A stretch of DNA of 64,000 nt, taken from contig NZ_ML214298.1 in the NCBI RefSeq assembly GCF_004698125.1, positions 558,001 to 622,000 of the forward strand. Reading direction: 5' to 3'. The stretch is from Halosimplex halophilum. GTDB lineage: Archaea > Halobacteriota > Halobacteria > Halobacteriales > Haloarculaceae. The position numbers and the translations under genes were made by a program. The notes under the pieces were generated by a model. It did no database searches, was not told where the DNA came from, and worked only from the letters and a program-made list of their open reading frames with translations. This document shows, in pieces, positions 21,835 through 33,693 of this stretch. Positions within the stretch are counted from its first letter, which is position 1. Each line of letters opens with the position of its first letter.

Positions 21835-23658
21835 ATGCCGACCGACAGAACCAGGCGCTGGCTGCTGCGCACGGCCGCCGCCTCCGCCGCGACCGCCCTG
21901 GCGGGCTGTCGCGCCGACGAGGGGGACCCGGACCGGGAGAGCGACCGACCCGAACCGGCGGCGAGTCCGGGCGCGGACCCGACGGCGACACCCTGCCCGG
22001 ACACGCCGACGGAGACGCCGGAGACACCCCCGCCCGTCGACACCGACCGTGAGCGCATCGACGACTGGCAGTACGACCCGACGCCGACAGCGACCGCCGC
22101 CCACGGCGGCGGGACCCACACCGCCACGCCGATGGCGACCGCCACGCCAACCGGGGGGAGCGTCGGGCTCGCCGCGGGCGGCGCGAAGGACGTGGGGACC
22201 TTCCGCCGCAACGTCGAGGAGGGCTACCTCCCGCTGCCCGAGAGCCTGAGCTACGAGGGGCTGTTCTACGACTACTACTTCGAGACCGGCGACCCGGGGC
22301 CGCTCTGCGGCGCGACGTTCGGCCCGGCCTACGCCCCGGCGGTGACGGCCGACCCCCTCTCGGGGGAGACCGAGCGGTACCTCACGGTCGGGCTCAACTC
22401 CGGGCTGGCGGCCGACAAGTTCGAGCGCAAGCGGCTCAACCTCGTGGTCGTCGTCGACGTCTCCGGGTCGATGTCCGATGCGTTCGACGACTACTACTAC
22501 GACCGCCACGGTAACGAGCGGACCCCGAAGGGGGACACCGACCGCGAGAAGATCGAGGTGGCCCGCGAGGCGCTCGTTGCGCTGACCGAACAGCTCCGGC
22601 CGGGCGACCGCCTCGGGATCGTCCTCTACGACGACGAGTCGACGGTCGCGAAGCCGCTCCGACCGGTCGCCGCGACGGACATGGACGCCATCCGCGAGCA
22701 CGTCCGCGAGGACATCGAGGCGGGCGGCGGCACGCGGCTCTCGGCGGGCGTGGCCGACGCGACCGACCTGCTCCGGGAGTACGACGACGCCGACCGCTCC
22801 GTCTACGAGAACCGGACGATCGTGTTGACCGACGCGATGCCGAACCTCGGCGAGACCGACGCCGGCGACCTGCGCGGGCGCCTCGCGGACAACGCCGACC
22901 GGGGGCGCTACACCACGTTCGTCGGCGTCGGCGTCGACTTCCACGCCGAACTCGTCGACGCCATCACGTCGATCCGGGGGGCCAACTACTACAGCGTCCA
23001 CTCGGCCGACGAGTTCACCCGCCGGCTCGGCGACGAGTTCAAGTACATGGTCACCCCGCTGGTGTTCGACCTCGAACTCACGCTCGATGCCGCCGGCTAC
23101 GACATCCGCCGGGTCTACGGCACCTCGGCCGCCGAGGAGTCGACCGGCCGGATCATGCGCGTCAACACGCTGTTCGCGTCGCCCAGCGAGGGCGGCAAGT
23201 CCCGCGGCGGCGTCGTCCTCGCGCAGGTCGACCGCAAGTCCGCCGACGCCGCGCTGGACCTCACTGTCAGCTGGACCGACCGCAGGGGCCGCAGCCACGA
23301 GAACGCGACGCGGGTCCGGTTCCCCGACGCCGACCCGGACTACTACGCGAACACGGGCGTCCGGAAGGCCGTCCTGCTCTCGCGGTACGCCGACCTCCTG
23401 AAGAACTGGCTGGTCGCCGAGCGGGAGGCCGACCGCGAGACGCCGGGGCCCGACGACGGCATCGAGGTGCCGCCGCCGGAGCACGAACTCGGCGAGTGGG
23501 AACAGCAGTCGGAACCGCTGACGGTGAGCGACACCTACGAGCAGCGCATCCGGGAGTTCCGCGAGTACTTCGAGTCCGAGGCCGAGGCCATCGGCGACGA
23601 GACCCTCTCGCAGGAGGCCGAGACGATGGCGACCATCCTCGAACAGGACGACGACTGA
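21835..23658 (+). CDS. Tat-exported lipoprotein with VWA domain (YfbK-like)
   Basis: A 607-aa protein. The N-terminus has a twin-arginine signal and lipobox, TRRWLLRTAAASAATALAGC, so it should be exported folded and anchored by lipid at the cysteine. A Thr/Pro-rich linker (to about 110) follows. Then come the YfbK-type N-domain (VGTFRRNVEEGYLPLPESL), a VWA domain (about 200-390) with intact MIDAS DVSGSMS and TDAMPN, and the C-terminal domain usual for YfbK proteins (NYYSVHSADEFTRRL, FDLELTL, VRKAVLLSRYADLLKNWL). It probably makes metal-dependent protein contacts at the cell surface. It stands alone; an inverted repeat lies before its promoter. Confidence 0.92.
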   Translation: MPTDRTRRWLLRTAAASAATALAGCRADEGDPDRESDRPEPAASPGADPTATPCPDTPTETPETPPPVDTDRERIDDWQYDPTPTATAAHGGGTHTATPMATATPTGGSVGLAAGGAKDVGTFRRNVEEGYLPLPESLSYEGLFYDYYFETGDPGPLCGATFGPAYAPAVTADPLSGETERYLTVGLNSGLAADKFERKRLNLVVVVDVSGSMSDAFDDYYYDRHGNERTPKGDTDREKIEVAREALVALTEQLRPGDRLGIVLYDDESTVAKPLRPVAATDMDAIREHVREDIEAGGGTRLSAGVADATDLLREYDDADRSVYENRTIVLTDAMPNLGETDAGDLRGRLADNADRGRYTTFVGVGVDFHAELVDAITSIRGANYYSVHSADEFTRRLGDEFKYMVTPLVFDLELTLDAAGYDIRRVYGTSAAEESTGRIMRVNTLFASPSEGGKSRGGVVLAQVDRKSADAALDLTVSWTDRRGRSHENATRVRFPDADPDYYANTGVRKAVLLSRYADLLKNWLVAEREADRETPGPDDGIEVPPPEHELGEWEQQSEPLTVSDTYEQRIREFREYFESEAEAIGDETLSQEAETMATILEQDDD

Positions 23659-27010: not shown

Positions 27011-27106
27011 GTGTCAACGAACGGACGAGGGGGCGTCCGGGCGAGCCGCGACGGGCCGCGCCAGCGGCGGCGGTCGGTCGCCCGGGGGGTTCGGAACCGT
27101 CGATGA
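27011..27106 (+). CDS. Possible 31-aa leader ORF overlapping the kinase start
   Basis: GTG at 27011 opens a 31-codon frame, very rich in arginine (about a third of residues, ending RRSVARGVRNRR), whose TGA overlaps the kinase ATG as ATGA. The TATA box at 26979 places transcription start at or next to this GTG, so it would be the first codon of a leaderless mRNA. It could couple translation to the kinase. The basic composition is unlike halophilic proteins, so a regulatory rather than protein role, or no role, is likely. Confidence 0.3.
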   Translation: MSTNGRGGVRASRDGPRQRRRSVARGVRNRR

Positions 27107-30100
27107 CGGACGGGGGCGCGGGCGGGGCGGCGGGCGGAACCGCGGACGGGAACGTCCCGGACGCGGTCCGGGCGCGCCGGTGCGTTGCGGTGGCGGTCGC
27201 GGACGGCCGCGTCGTCGACGCGACGGCGACACTCGTCGACGCCCTGGGGGTCGACCCCGCGGTCGCAGCGGGTAGAGCGGACTTCTACGACGGACTCGCG
27301 ACCGCGGCGACCGACCCCGGGGCGGCCGAGCGGGTCGCGGCGGCGGCCGCCGAGGGAGCGGCGACCGACGGGACCGCGGTGGCGGTCGGGACTGACGCGG
27401 GTCGGCGGGTGTACCGCCACGCCGCCGCGCCGTGTCCGGCCGACTCGGCGGCCGACCGGGTGGAGCTGTTCGAGGACGTGACGCGGCTCCGCGACCGCGA
27501 CGACGGGCTCGACACCGTCGAGACGCTCGCGGAACGCGTCCGCGACGGGCTCCTCGCGACCGACGGCGAGGGGCGGGTCGCCTACTGCAACGAGTCGTTC
27601 GCGTCGCTGCTCGGCGCCGAGCCGGCGGCGCTCGTCGGGCGACCGGTCGACCGGCTCGTCGCCGAGGACGAGCGGGCGGCGTGGGCGGCTACGGTCGCCG
27701 AACTCGACCCCGACACGGAGCTGACACGCGAGTTCGCGTTCCGGTGGGGCGACTCGCGGGTCCGGCTGTCGGTCGCGCTGACCGGGCGGCCGGCGGGGGG
27801 CGTCCTCGGCGCGGCGCGCCGTCCCGACCGGCCGTCCGGGCGGGCGGGTCGCGCCGATCGGTACCGGCGGCTCGTCGAGAGCGCGGCCGACCCGATGTGG
27901 GTCGTCGACGGCGACGACCGGATCGCGCTCGCCAACGAGGCGATGGGCGAGTTTCTCGGCGTCGACCCCGCGGCCCTGGAGGGCGTGCCCGCGACCGACC
28001 CCGTCCCGGACGCGGCGGCCGAGCGGATCGCCGCGGCGCTGGAGACGGTCCGCGCGGGCGACCGCCGCCGGTGGCACGACACCGAGCTGCGGCTCCCGGA
28101 CGCCGACGGGCGCGAGCGGCGGTTCGAGGCGACGTTCGGGCCGGTGCGGGCCGACGGGGCCGTCGTCGGGACGGTCGGCACCTTCCGCGACGTGACCGAG
28201 CGCGAGCGCCGCCGCCGGGAGCTCGAACAGCTCCGGCGGCTGCTCGCCGGCGTCGTCCGGACGGACGTGGGCGAGGGCGTCCGCGAGATCGGCGACCTGG
28301 CCGACCGCCTGGTCGAGCGCGTCGACGGCGAACCCGCGGCGCTGGCGGCGGCGATCGGCGAGCGCGCCGACGCGCTGGCGGACCTCGTCGCCAAGACCGC
28401 GGCCGTCGAGCGCATCGTCGACACCGACCCCGAGCCGACGGCCGTCGCGCTCGACGAGGCCGTCGACCGGGCGGTCGCCGCCGTCGACCCGCCGTCCGCG
28501 ACCACCCTCGATGTCGACGCCCCGTCGGTCGACGTGTGGGCCGTGCCGGTCGTCGACCTCGCCGTCCGGAACCTCGTCGAGAACGCCGTCGAGCACGGCT
28601 CGACGAGCCCTCCCTCGCAGGCTCAGCAGGACGCCGTGGAACACAGTTCCACGAGCCGTCGGCCGGGGGCCGACGACGCCGTCGAGCACGGCTCGACGAG
28701 CCCTCCCTCGCAGGCTCGCGAGGACGCCACCGCTCACGCGGGAGCGGCGCCGACCGTCTCGGTGACGGGGACGGTCGACGAGCGGTCGGTGACCCTCTCG
28801 GTCGTCGACGACGGCCCGGGGATCCCCGACGCGGAGCTGGCGGCGCTGGAACGCGGCGCCGAGACGGCGCTGGACCACGGCAGCGGCGTCGGCCTCTGGC
28901 TCGTCGAGTGGGTCGTCGCCAAGTCCGGCGGCGACCTCTCGTTCGAGACCGACGACGGCACCCGGGCGACGGTCCGGTTCGACCGCGCCGACGGGCTCGG
29001 GGGGCCGATGGCCGGCGGATCGGCGTCCGACACGGCCGGGCCCGAGGACGCAGACGTGCGCGTCTGTCACCTCGACCCGGACCGCTCGGCGACGGCGCGG
29101 ATCCGCGAGGCCGCCGCCGGCGTCGGCCCGACCGTCGCCGTCGAGCGCGCCGAGGGGGTCGACGCCGCGGTCACGGCGCTCGACGCCGGCCGCGTCGACT
29201 GCCTGGTCACCGACTGCATCGACGACCCCGACTGGGACCGCCTCGCCGCCGCGGCCGACGGGGCCGACGCCCCCGTCGTCTGTTACGCCGGCGCCGCCCA
29301 CGCCGGGATCGACGGCGAGCGGCTCGCCGCCGTCGACAGCCTCGTCGAGAAGGGGACGGGCACCGCACCGGCGACCTTCCTGGTCGAGAAGGTCCTCGCG
29401 CTCGTCGGGGTCGGCGGCGACGCCCGACCGACCGGCTCGGCCGACGCGCCGGCGGAACCGACCGCCGGCGCGTCAACTGACACGGACGGTACAGACAGCC
29501 CTGACGACGGGAGCGACACCGCGGTCGGATCCGCTGGATCCGCCGTCGGCTCGGCCGTCCGCGTCGTGGCGGACAGTGGGACGGCGACCAGCGTCCCGGA
29601 CGGCCACCCCGGGTTCGCCGACGCGACCGACCCGCCTGCTGGCGGCGAGGCCGCGGCGGTCCGGACCGAGGCCGACGGGACGGACCGGCGCCGCGTCGGC
29701 GAGTGGGCGCTGTCGCTGACGGCCGGCGGCGACGGCCTCCGGGTGCGCTACGCGCGGGACCTGACGCCGCTGGCCGCCCGGGAGCGGCGCCGCGCGCTGC
29801 TGGCCGCGCTGGTCGACCACGCCCGGGACCGCGTCTCGGTCGTCGACGCGAACGGCGAGGTGGTCTACCACAACGAGGCGTTCGCCGAGGCGCTGGGCTA
29901 CGCCGACATGACCGGGACCCACTCGGCGGAGTTCATGGCGCCGGGCGAGCTGGAGAAGGGACAGCTGGCCGTCCAGCGGCTGCTCGCGACGCCGGAGCTG
30001 GACAGCGAGGTCCTCGACGTGGCCTTCGAGACGGCCGACGGCGAGCGGGTCACGCTGGCGCTCCAGTTCGCCGTCCGCCGCGAGGACGGCGAGTACGCCG

Positions 30101-31284
30101 GCGTCGTCAACGTCGGCCGCGAGGCGACCGGCGGGGCCGCGGACCCGCGGCTCGAACGCGCCCGGACGCTCGTCGAGAGCGCCGGCGACCCGATGTTCGT
30201 CGTCGACGCCGACGGCCGGCTGACGCTGGTCAACGAGGCGCTCGAACGCCTGCTCGGTCGCCCCCGCTCGGCGCTGCGGGGCACCCACGTCCGGGAGGCC
30301 TTCCCGACCGTCGGTGCCGCGTGCGACGGCGGGAGAGCCGACGCCGGCGGCGGGGAGCGTCCGGGCGGTGTCGACGACGGGAACCCGGGCGACGAGTCGG
30401 ATCGCGGCGGCGACGCGGACGCCGACGAGTGGTGGCGACCGACCGGCGGCGACCGGACCTTCTGCGCGCGCGTTCGCGGCGCCGACGGCGACCGCCACCG
30501 CTACGAGCTGACCGTCGTCGATCCCGATTCCTTCGAGGGCACCGTCTGCACCTGCCGGGAGGTCACGGCCCGCGAGCGCCGCGCCGAGGAGCTCGCACGG
30601 CTCAAGCGCGTGCTCGGGCGGGTCCTCCGGCACAACCTCCGCAACGAACTGACGCTCGTGACCGGCCACGCCCAGCTCATCGCCGACGCGCTGGCCGACC
30701 GGGACGGCGACGACGCCGGCGACCCGCTCGCGCTGGCGCGGTCGATCCAGCGCGCGGCCGACGGCCTCGCGGCGACCGCGACGACGGCCCGCGCGGCCGA
30801 GCGGGCGCTCGAACGGGACGAAACGCGCCCGCAGTCGCTGTCGACGGTCGTCGACGCGGCCGCGGAGGCCGCCGCCGAGCGCCGTCGACCCGTGGCGGTG
30901 TCGGCGGCCGTCCCGTCGGAGTGTGCGGTCGTCGCCCCGCCGTCGATCGCGACGGCCTTCGAGGCGCTGTTCGGCGCGCTCGCCCGGGGCAGCGACGCCG
31001 ACGAACCGACCCTCCGGGTCCGCGCGGCCGAGGCGGACGGACGGGTCGAGATCCGCGTCTCGCTCCCGAACGCACGGGTCGACCGCGGCGCCGTCGAACC
31101 GTTCACCGCGCCGCCGGCGGTCACCCTCGACCGCCACCGCGACGCGGGCGCCTGGCTGTTCGCCTGGGCCCTCGACCGCTCGGGGGGGAGCGCCCGCGTC
31201 GACGGCTCGGGCGACGGTCCCGCCGTCGTCGTCTCGCTGCCCGCCGCGGACGGCCCGCCGGCGGCGTCGTCCACGGCCGAGTGA
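27103..31284 (+). CDS. Giant double histidine kinase with two complementary, half-degenerate kinase modules
   Basis: A 1393-aa soluble multi-domain sensor. In order: a PAS-like N-domain (1-125); PAS (about 140-240); PAS (255-375, ESAADPMWVVDGDDRI); a DHp-like helix pair where the expected histidine is Thr387 (VVRTDVGEG); a HATPase with intact N494 (ENAVEHG), DDGPGIP (569-575) and GSGVGLWLVEW; a receiver-like domain (640-770, candidate Asp704 in LVTD, Lys in VEKG); an acidic linker; two PAS domains (about 895-1015 and 1020-1160); a DHp with His1177 (RVLRHNLRNELTL); and a C-terminal HATPase that lacks the N-box Asn (EALFGALARGSD) and the G1 box. So the ATP site is in the first module and the histidine in the second. 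No membrane helix. A three-fold insert disrupts the first HATPase after N494. Confidence 0.92.
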   Translation: MTDGGAGGAAGGTADGNVPDAVRARRCVAVAVADGRVVDATATLVDALGVDPAVAAGRADFYDGLATAATDPGAAERVAAAAAEGAATDGTAVAVGTDAGRRVYRHAAAPCPADSAADRVELFEDVTRLRDRDDGLDTVETLAERVRDGLLATDGEGRVAYCNESFASLLGAEPAALVGRPVDRLVAEDERAAWAATVAELDPDTELTREFAFRWGDSRVRLSVALTGRPAGGVLGAARRPDRPSGRAGRADRYRRLVESAADPMWVVDGDDRIALANEAMGEFLGVDPAALEGVPATDPVPDAAAERIAAALETVRAGDRRRWHDTELRLPDADGRERRFEATFGPVRADGAVVGTVGTFRDVTERERRRRELEQLRRLLAGVVRTDVGEGVREIGDLADRLVERVDGEPAALAAAIGERADALADLVAKTAAVERIVDTDPEPTAVALDEAVDRAVAAVDPPSATTLDVDAPSVDVWAVPVVDLAVRNLVENAVEHGSTSPPSQAQQDAVEHSSTSRRPGADDAVEHGSTSPPSQAREDATAHAGAAPTVSVTGTVDERSVTLSVVDDGPGIPDAELAALERGAETALDHGSGVGLWLVEWVVAKSGGDLSFETDDGTRATVRFDRADGLGGPMAGGSASDTAGPEDADVRVCHLDPDRSATARIREAAAGVGPTVAVERAEGVDAAVTALDAGRVDCLVTDCIDDPDWDRLAAAADGADAPVVCYAGAAHAGIDGERLAAVDSLVEKGTGTAPATFLVEKVLALVGVGGDARPTGSADAPAEPTAGASTDTDGTDSPDDGSDTAVGSAGSAVGSAVRVVADSGTATSVPDGHPGFADATDPPAGGEAAAVRTEADGTDRRRVGEWALSLTAGGDGLRVRYARDLTPLAARERRRALLAALVDHARDRVSVVDANGEVVYHNEAFAEALGYADMTGTHSAEFMAPGELEKGQLAVQRLLATPELDSEVLDVAFETADGERVTLALQFAVRREDGEYAGVVNVGREATGGAADPRLERARTLVESAGDPMFVVDADGRLTLVNEALERLLGRPRSALRGTHVREAFPTVGAACDGGRADAGGGERPGGVDDGNPGDESDRGGDADADEWWRPTGGDRTFCARVRGADGDRHRYELTVVDPDSFEGTVCTCREVTARERRAEELARLKRVLGRVLRHNLRNELTLVTGHAQLIADALADRDGDDAGDPLALARSIQRAADGLAATATTARAAERALERDETRPQSLSTVVDAAAEAAAERRRPVAVSAAVPSECAVVAPPSIATAFEALFGALARGSDADEPTLRVRAAEADGRVEIRVSLPNARVDRGAVEPFTAPPAVTLDRHRDAGAWLFAWALDRSGGSARVDGSGDGPAVVVSLPAADGPPAASSTAE
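28582..28722 (+). repeat. In-frame triple repeat recreating the N-box sequence
   Basis: Three tandem units inside the kinase: NAVEHGSTSPPSQAQQ (28582-28629), DAVEHSSTSRRPGAD (28630-28674) and DAVEHGSTSPPSQARE (28675-28722), then a decayed DATAHAG. Units 1 and 3 are nearly identical in DNA; each includes the odd palindrome GGCTCG-A-CGAGCC. Only the first unit is the real N-box. Confidence 0.9.
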
Positions 31285-31347: not shown

Positions 31348-33693
31348 ATGGGCGGGTTCACCTTCCGTGGGTACTACGGCCTGCGAGCGACCGGCGGAGC
31401 GGTCGCCGGGCGGTCCGACGGCGGAGCGGCGACCGCCGAGGCGGCGACCGACCGGACGGCGAGCGGCCAGGCGGCGAGCGCCGTGACCGCGGCCGGCGTC
31501 GCCGCGACGACGGACGGCCTCCCGTCGCTCCCGGCGCGGCTGGGGGCCGTCGACCCCCGGCTGGCGTCGCCGGTCGGGACCGCACAGGACGCCGAGGACA
31601 ACGTCTGGCTCGCCGACTCGGGCCACAACCGGCTGCTCGTCGTCGGCGACGACCTGGACCGGCTGCTCGCCGTCGTCGGGGCCACGGGGCCACAGCCGGG
31701 GCGGTTCGACCTCCCGATGCGGCTGGCCCACCACCCCACCGACCGCGCGGTCTACGTCGCCGACACCGGTAACGGCCGGATCCAGCGGCTCGACTACGCG
31801 TACGACGGCGACTGCCCACAGGTCACTGCCGTCGACCAGTTCGCCGCCGACGACCCGTTCCACCCGAACGGCGTCGTCGCCCACGCGTACCCCGACGGCG
31901 TCCGGGTGGTCGCGGCCGACGAGTTCTACCGCGAGGGGTCGGACCTGCGGGGTCGGCTGGTCGTCTTCGACGAGACGGGCGAGCAGGTCCGGTCGATCCG
32001 CGCGGTCGGCGAGGACAACCCGACGCCGCTGTACTGGCCACAGGGTCTCGACGTCGACGACGAGGGCCGGATCTACGTGGCGAACACGGGCTACGGCGTC
32101 CTCCACGACGGGCCGACCGGGCCGCCGAAGCTCGCGACGGTCGTCCGCTGCGACCGGACCGGCGCGGCGGCGCCCTTCGAGGGACTGTCCGACGAGGTAC
32201 TCGCCGAGCTGCCGATGCCCCGCGACGTGGCCGTCGTCGGGTCGGGTGCCGACGCGCAGATATTCGTCCCCGACGCGGCGACCGGGCGGGTCCACGTCTA
32301 CACGAGCGTCGGCATCGCCGACGGCGTCGTCCCCGAGGACGGCGAAGACATCCGGGCGAACGCCGCCATCGAGGACGGGATCGGGGTCCCCCGCGACGGC
32401 CGCCGGCAGGAGGACGATGCCGCTTCCGGGGGCGATGCCGTCCCGGGCGACGGCGGTCAGGAGCGGTTCCGGGGACCGGTCGGGATCGCCGGGTTCGAGG
32501 GGGTCTCGGTGCCCGACTCGGACGCCGACGACCCGACGCTGCCGGTGCTGACTGCGGAGGCGCTCGCGGGGCGGGTCGGCGCCTACGCCGTCGACATCCA
32601 CACCGAGTCCGCCCGGCGGCTCGGGACCGTCGGCGCCCCGCGGGACCGCCCGGGGGAGTTCGCCGTCCCGACCGGGTCGGTCGTCGTCGCCGACCCCGAC
32701 TCGCCGCTCGACCGGTGTGCGCTCGTCGGCGACGGCGCGAACGGCCGCCTCGGGTGCGTCGCCCTCGGCGCGGCTGGCGGCGCCGACGACTCCGTCACCG
32801 ACGGCGGGCGGGCCGCCGACGCGGAGAGCACCCGCGGTCGCCGTGCGGGCCGCCGGGGCGGCCGCGTCGACGCGGTGGCACTCCCGGCGACGCGGTTCCC
32901 GTTCGGGCTGGCCTACTGGCCCGCGGGGACCGGCGGGGGCGGCCGGCTGTTCGTGACCGACTACACCGCCCACTACCGCGACGCCGACAGGAGCGGCCAG
33001 GTCCACGTCTACGCCGTCGACGAGGCGGTCGGGGAGGAAGGCGAGGGTGCCGGCGCCGGCGTCTCGCTCACTCTGGTCGACTCGTTCGGCACCTGGGGGA
33101 TGGGCGACGGCGAGGTGAAGCTCCCGCGGGGGATCGCGGTCGACCCGCGGGGCGACGGCGTCGCCCGGGTCTGGGTCGCCGACTCGGCGAACGGTCGGAT
33201 CGGCGCCTGGGACTACGACCGCGTCCTCGACAGTGCACGGGTGCGGGGCGACCGGGGCTGTTTCGGCTACATCGACGGCGGCTTCTGGAACCCCTCGGAC
33301 GTGGCCGTCGGCGACCGGGGCGTCTACGTCGCCGACGAGAACAACAACCGCCTCCAGCGCTTCGACGGCGAGGAGTGGCACCCCGTCGGGGAGCCGGGCT
33401 ACGGCGGCGGCCGCGAGTTCCTTCTGCCCATCTCCGTCGCCGCCCGCGACGGCCGGCTGTTCGTCCTCGATCTGGTCAGTCGCTCGGTCCGGGTGTTCGC
33501 GGAGGACGGGGACGCCGAGGGCGGGCTGCGGCCCGTCGACGAACACCGGGCGTTCGGCGGCGACGCCGCCGCCGGGGAGCTGTGGCTGCCCTACCTGCTG
33601 TCGGTCGGCGACGTGTCCGGAGCGGGCGTCGACGTCGTCGTCCCGGACTCGACGCTGCACGTCGCACAGCACTACACCTGGTCGCCGGAGTGA
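31348..33693 (+). CDS. NHL-repeat beta-propeller protein
   Basis: A 781-aa protein. After an Ala/Thr-rich N-terminus (about 1-65) it shows repeated NHL-type blades: DAEDNVWLADSGHNRLLVV, DRAVYVADTGNGRIQRLDY, DEGRIYVANTGYGVL, ARVWVADSANGRIGAWDY and DRGVYVADENNNRLQRFDG, each with the xVADxxNxRIxxx signature, consistent with one or two six-bladed propellers. Long low-complexity acidic inserts (about 345-375, 480-515) separate blades. There is no obvious signal peptide, so it is probably cytoplasmic or exported by an unknown route. NHL propellers bind proteins, RNA or ligands; no enzymatic motif is visible. The double-kinase gene ends 63 bases upstream in the same direction. Confidence 0.88.
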   Translation: MGGFTFRGYYGLRATGGAVAGRSDGGAATAEAATDRTASGQAASAVTAAGVAATTDGLPSLPARLGAVDPRLASPVGTAQDAEDNVWLADSGHNRLLVVGDDLDRLLAVVGATGPQPGRFDLPMRLAHHPTDRAVYVADTGNGRIQRLDYAYDGDCPQVTAVDQFAADDPFHPNGVVAHAYPDGVRVVAADEFYREGSDLRGRLVVFDETGEQVRSIRAVGEDNPTPLYWPQGLDVDDEGRIYVANTGYGVLHDGPTGPPKLATVVRCDRTGAAAPFEGLSDEVLAELPMPRDVAVVGSGADAQIFVPDAATGRVHVYTSVGIADGVVPEDGEDIRANAAIEDGIGVPRDGRRQEDDAASGGDAVPGDGGQERFRGPVGIAGFEGVSVPDSDADDPTLPVLTAEALAGRVGAYAVDIHTESARRLGTVGAPRDRPGEFAVPTGSVVVADPDSPLDRCALVGDGANGRLGCVALGAAGGADDSVTDGGRAADAESTRGRRAGRRGGRVDAVALPATRFPFGLAYWPAGTGGGGRLFVTDYTAHYRDADRSGQVHVYAVDEAVGEEGEGAGAGVSLTLVDSFGTWGMGDGEVKLPRGIAVDPRGDGVARVWVADSANGRIGAWDYDRVLDSARVRGDRGCFGYIDGGFWNPSDVAVGDRGVYVADENNNRLQRFDGEEWHPVGEPGYGGGREFLLPISVAARDGRLFVLDLVSRSVRVFAEDGDAEGGLRPVDEHRAFGGDAAAGELWLPYLLSVGDVSGAGVDVVVPDSTLHVAQHYTWSPE

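Follow-up and report, generated by a model that had tools for sequence, protein, structure and literature searches.

Gene content and domain organization

The window, the whole 64,000-nucleotide stretch of Halosimplex halophilum DNA that was analysed, encodes a double-module sensor histidine kinase of 1393 amino acids. The open reading frame is a real gene that starts at the ATG at 27103, and an equivalent Met-Thr start is found in several syntenic copies. Both kinase modules are encoded on this single frame rather than on separate proteins. The gene, its parts and its downstream neighbor are:

27103-31284, plus strand: double-module sensor histidine kinase, PAS-PAS-PAS-DHp1-ATPase1-receiver-linker-PAS-PAS-DHp2-ATPase2
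27181-28209, plus strand: N-terminal PAS region (weak PAS_4 match at residues 27-130, then PAS domains at about 139-245 and 253-369)
28210-28431, plus strand: DHp1, with Thr387 (ACG, 28261-28263) at the phospho-His position and Asp388 kept
28498-29004, plus strand: ATPase 1, the predicted catalytic half (N494, 28582-28584; DDGPGIP, 28807-28827; HGSGVGLW, 28876-28899)
29044-29418, plus strand: degenerate receiver domain (Asp704, 29212-29214)
29785-30573, plus strand: module-2 PAS pair (residues about 895-1010 and 1020-1157)
30574-30837, plus strand: DHp2, the predicted phosphoacceptor half (His1177, 30631-30633)
30886-31248, plus strand: pseudo-ATPase 2, lacking the N, G1 and G2 boxes
31348-33693, plus strand: NHL-repeat protein (781 amino acids)

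Pfam recognizes only several successive PAS domains and a single HATPase_c domain (residues 487-628), with no match to HisKA or Response_reg either in this kinase or in its orthologue from genome G004. The domain between the modules, also unseen by Pfam, is recognized as a receiver fold when profiles are compared (hhalign 98%, E 1.6e-12). An AlphaFold model of DHp2-ATPase2 from one sequence had a mean pLDDT of 52.9, too poor for use.

Complementary losses of catalytic residues

The DHp-ATPase regions of both modules were aligned with 33 haloarchaeal kinase domains from related genomes; an alignment that misplaced ATPase domains owing to repeats at the N-box (see below) was set aside. The phospho-His column has Thr in module 1 and His in module 2, and the N-box has Asn and Ala, respectively. 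The G1 box reads DDGPG in module 1 versus LPNAR in module 2, and the G2 box GSGVGL versus RDAGAW. The alignment thus upholds the original prediction that module 1 has its ATPase motifs and Thr387 in place of His, and that module 2 has His1177 without the N-box Asn and G1 box. The residue numbers given there (T387, N494, D704 and H1177) are all exact, and the loss of the G2 box had been overlooked. A simple shift of the His or Asn is excluded by the alignment, and the complementary pattern does not stem from a frame shift. Further, a profile built from haloarchaeal kinases matches module 2 in full, with 66.5 bits and 224 of 225 positions covered, so this module is a true but degenerate homologue in which the missing residues are not displaced. 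The residue after the DHp2 His is Asn rather than an acidic residue, as is frequent in the aligned haloarchaeal relatives; this may count against phosphorylation of His1177 by ATPase 1.

Orthologues and the order of losses

We searched eight Halosimplex-group genomes and identified the double kinase in a syntenic position in six. The gene for the NHL-repeat protein lies immediately to the right in all six, followed by an isocitrate/isopropylmalate dehydrogenase gene in five (in G007 this position is outside the stretch compared), and a DUF373 gene on the left is common to five of the six. No double kinase was seen in G001, a genome that is 71% complete. G005 has the NHL gene and no kinase remnant between the flanks, a clean absence. 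The NHL-repeat protein is possibly a functional partner of the kinase, although it is kept in G005, where the kinase is lacking. A plasmid collection contained no full-length match, and a scan of genome contigs detected only kinases with N-box repeats and no orthologue.

Between the MFS and DUF373 genes there is a gene for a VWA-domain protein (21835-23658), here and in G006. In G003 and G002 the MFS and DUF373 genes are adjacent, without a VWA-domain gene in that interval.

The ATPase motifs of module 1 and the His of module 2 are intact in all six orthologues, and the N, G1 and G2 boxes of module 2 are gone from all six. At the phospho-His position of module 1, five orthologues encode Thr (ACG) and G004 encodes His (CAC), codons that differ at all three bases. 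Thus, five species rather than six show full complementarity: the ATPase and the phospho-His are on different modules, neither of which is complete, in all but G004. The ATPase 1 and DHp2 halves probably each need the other. The complementary halves of the original prediction therefore stand as losses fixed in five of six orthologues; its suggestion that one half supplies catalysis to the other does not extend as an obligatory arrangement across the family, because module 1 of G004 has both His and Asn, a case of the kind that the original prediction had named as refuting it.

In both module clades G004 branches off deepest, with 59% identity to the others versus 76-90% among the other five, and represents an intermediate in which ATPase 2 is dead and both His are present. 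Each of the eight genomes also encodes one single-module relative (760-830 amino acids; receiver-PAS-PAS-PAS-DHp-ATPase) that is intact throughout. Since these relatives, all of which keep the His, group with module 1 (support 97/91), the His of module 1 is ancestral. The order of events is therefore a fusion or duplication, followed by loss of ATPase 2 and later, on the branch leading to the five species, by loss of His 1.

The receiver domain has lost one acidic residue and the Thr, with the Lys kept. At its phosphoacceptor position, five of six orthologues have Asp (Asp704 here); G004 and the eight single-module relatives all have Glu. The receiver-like domain noticed originally is thus a receiver by fold, but a degenerate one in which the Asp is not common to all orthologues. 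Gain of the Asp and loss of His 1 map to one branch, which is suggestive of rewiring, or may be coincidence.

Selection and invariant stretches

Ratios of dN/dS were pooled within the five close orthologues and bootstrapped; with intervals that are wide and overlapping, they are 0.31 for ATPase 1 versus 0.56 for ATPase 2 (P 0.016), and 0.31 for the DHp2 core versus 0.78 for the DHp1 core (P 0.045), the DHp1 interval including 1. The matching single-module kinases have values of 0.07 (DHp) and 0.22 (ATPase), and the double kinase overall, at about 0.5, is above them. This faster rate makes partial decay possible. His1177 lies within a 17-residue stretch, VLGRVLRHNLRNELTLV, that is invariant in all six orthologues; only two invariant runs in the six-way alignment are longer (longest run in shuffles: mean 7, 99th percentile 11). 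The G2 box of ATPase 1 is in the eighth-longest run, HGSGVGLWLV (10 residues). In the same alignment, long invariant runs are lacking from ATPase 2 and from DHp1 past its entry helix. The retained halves, ATPase 1 and DHp2, are more constrained than their partners, and the full protein changes more rapidly than an ordinary kinase does.

Predicted mechanism and alternatives

We predict that the protein is a soluble multi-PAS split kinase in one chain, in which ATPase 1 phosphorylates His1177. Given the residues kept and the order of loss, this reading has slightly more in its favor than against it. ATPase 1 would bind ATP and transfer phosphate to His1177 of DHp2, either in the same chain or in the other chain of a dimer. 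The phosphate would then pass from His1177 to a response regulator or to Asp704 of the internal receiver. The ATPase domain of module 2 would be a non-catalytic remnant, and the PAS domains on both sides could gate one shared reaction. The phosphotransfer itself, its intramolecular or cross-dimer route and the downstream partner are predictions from sequence. The intermediate state of G004 is what one would expect if the dependence of module 2 on ATPase 1 came first. The more specific version, an obligate one-chain split kinase that regained the receiver Asp on the branch that lost His 1, is tentative, and we consider it somewhat more apt to be wrong than right.

The phosphate on His1177 could have another source, namely another kinase. 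Module 2 may be a phosphotransfer or phosphatase domain served by other proteins, with a response regulator or another kinase (e.g., the single-module paralogue) as the phosphate source, and module 1 an ATP-binding allosteric module that phosphorylates nothing. DHp2 keeps an Asn at H+4, a residue that serves phosphatase activity in HisKA kinases, and a single-module paralogue with an intact ATPase is available in every genome (8/8). Archaeal HisKA proteins without an ATPase, proposed to be phosphoacceptors or phosphatases, provide a precedent (PMC5847659). However, such an arrangement leaves unexplained why ATPase 1 is intact in all six orthologues while its own His was replaced by a three-base change in five, and we regard it as unlikely, if worth keeping in mind. 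Drift of a duplicated kinase toward loss of function, the retained halves bearing no particular relation to each other, would account for the high overall dN/dS, the DHp1 value of 0.78 with an interval that includes 1, and the clean absence of the gene from G005. It seems improbable in view of six open copies without stops, conserved synteny, and constraint that is concentrated on exactly the complementary halves.

The original prediction also raised an intramolecular relay. The order of parts (PAS-HK1-receiver-PAS-HK2) is that of TodS (PMC4321377), and Asp704 is present in five species, so phosphate might pass from the His of module 1 to the receiver Asp and on to the His of module 2. Because module 1 lacks its His in those five species, a His-Asp-His relay through Asp704 cannot start there, and G004, which has the His, has a receiver Glu. 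None of the six copies has both His 1 and the receiver Asp. Thus, a TodS-type relay is rejected on the residues, and we give it hardly any credence.

Comparison with known kinase systems supports describing the double kinase as a variant of known split and double kinases, in which the division arose stepwise, is complete in five species and is intermediate in a sixth. Split kinases that work in trans have been established experimentally for CheA3 and CheA4 of Rhodobacter sphaeroides, where one part binds ATP and catalyzes and another carries the phospho-His (PMC3591291). The same division of parts is found here, with catalysis predicted, but in one chain of the PAS-DHp-ATPase type rather than in separate CheA-class proteins. 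TodS and TmoS share with this kinase the PAS-kinase-receiver-PAS-kinase order on one soluble chain (PMC4321377). TodS works by a His-Asp-His relay with two autokinase modules (PMC4321377), whereas in the double kinase one half of the catalytic machinery is missing from module 1 and the other from module 2, and module 2 is not autokinase-competent by sequence, having lost the N, G1 and G2 boxes in 6/6 copies. The receiver-PAS-DHp-ATPase architecture is common in haloarchaea, and many of the receivers are probably unphosphorylated (PMC5847659). Module 2 and the single-module relatives have the receiver-PAS-PAS-DHp-ATPase order of archaeal REC-(PAS)n-HisKA-HATPase proteins; the double kinase differs in its fused second module and lost ATPase motifs. 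With a receiver and HisKA that are unseen by Pfam, it is a tentative member of this class.

A palindromic coding insert at the N-box

Directly after Asn494 of the module-1 N-box is a tandem array of three units (28588-28728) that had been overlooked in the original prediction:

28588-28635, plus strand: palindromic unit type A, 48 nt, in frame, VEHGSTSPPSQAQQDA
28636-28680, plus strand: palindromic unit type B, 45 nt, in frame, VEHSSTSRRPGADDA
28681-28728, plus strand: palindromic unit type A, 48 nt, in frame, VEHGSTSPPSQAREDA

The number of units at this place varies among the orthologues, with none in G003, G006 and G004, one in G007, two in G002 and three here. The single-module paralogue in the same genome also has units at its own N-box. 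A 23-base piece of the unit, allowing at most one mismatch, occurs in 19 of 243 haloarchaeal genomes (reversed control pattern, 0), and 25 of the 26 loci inspected are kinase N-boxes.

We searched for the peptide VEHGSTS in all synonymous codons and found that the third codon positions, although silent, covary in a way that preserves a stem of 7 bp, GTSGARC-AYG-GYTCSAC. In the order-wide covariation tests, which correct only partly for relatedness, 92 of 113 are paired at each of two positions, versus 54 and 52 in shuffles (maxima 70 and 71). Counts with one sequence per genome agree (48 and 47 of 59 paired versus 28), as do slid-register controls. In the second stem of type A, codon 9 pairs with codons 13-14 at positions that change the amino acid (53, 51 and 50 of 60 paired, versus 30, 21 and 21 when shuffled). 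By a formal covariation count for type A, 96% of cells are paired, and 89 cells are changed on both sides, where shuffles give 31 and slid registers no more than 16. The type B unit covaries likewise. Single-sided G-U states occur in just 3 of 546 cells, and we take this near absence to point to a DNA-level process rather than selection on RNA. The process may be hairpin-templated copying or the action of an enzyme on a DNA hairpin. Rfam provided only sub-threshold chance matches for the insert.

The element in other proteins and across haloarchaea

With a pattern that fixes the unpaired parts only (GAGCC N5 TCRCA N3 TC N5 GAC), we identified 29 copies in this genome and matches in 20 of 117 haloarchaeal genomes. 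The reversed control pattern had no match, and the phylum's other genomes (roughly 200) had no copy. Among the 48 distinct sequences found by this pattern, the free stem positions are complementary far beyond shuffles. Many copies in this genome are within multicopy elements outside kinases.

Mosaic repeats of about 300-400 bp are present in multiple copies outside kinases in this genome and in G007 (L145-L154). They have the same double-hairpin architecture with other stems, e.g., GGGAGAGC-AA-GCTCTCCC GAGC CCGCGC...GCGCGG AC, and are possibly the source or a relative of the in-gene unit.

The 16-residue element (S.SPASQARQDA) is encoded in frame in non-kinase proteins (L156, L157, L158, L164, L175, L171, L172 and L184). 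The first five of these are metallo-hydrolase genes with conserved THxHADH and TPGHT motifs, and in this family the unit occupies two different sites, with orthologues filled at one, the other or both. The filled and empty sites are direct evidence of in-frame insertion. A kinase-specific protein motif had been considered as an explanation and was dropped, because the DNA is palindromic, silent positions covary and unrelated proteins carry the unit.

In-frame palindromic coding elements are known from Rickettsia (RPE), Wolbachia and Methanocaldococcus jannaschii (PMC10969869, PMC2996958). Like the Rickettsia RPE, the unit is a short palindromic DNA found in frame in unrelated proteins (PMC10969869, PMC2996958), and it has the marks of a palindromic coding element, i.e., compensatory changes, and insertion in frame into proteins that are unrelated, at orthologous sites that are filled in some copies and empty in others. 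Unlike the RPE, which is about 150 bp, it is 45-48 nt long, has two small hairpins and expands in tandem. It also differs from the RPE in that it strongly favors the N-box of kinases and, among the genomes searched, is confined to haloarchaea. We found no description of this haloarchaeal element in the open-access literature, which is only part of all literature. With good but not full confidence, we conclude that it is a haloarchaea-wide, apparently undescribed protein-coding double hairpin of 45-48 nt that is in frame in unrelated genes, prefers the N-box and expands in tandem there, and has stems kept by compensatory changes even where these alter amino acids. Of the two findings the palindromic element is the more novel, with stronger evidence for something less expected than the split kinase.

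Significance

If confirmed, the double kinase would be a natural split kinase in one chain, with a surviving intermediate species that shows how a division of labor arises. The order, loss of an ATPase and then of the redundant His, would make the stepwise evolution of a pseudokinase testable by simple mutants. Separately, the palindromic element shows that, across haloarchaea, nucleic-acid pairing dictates protein sequence in a signalling enzyme.
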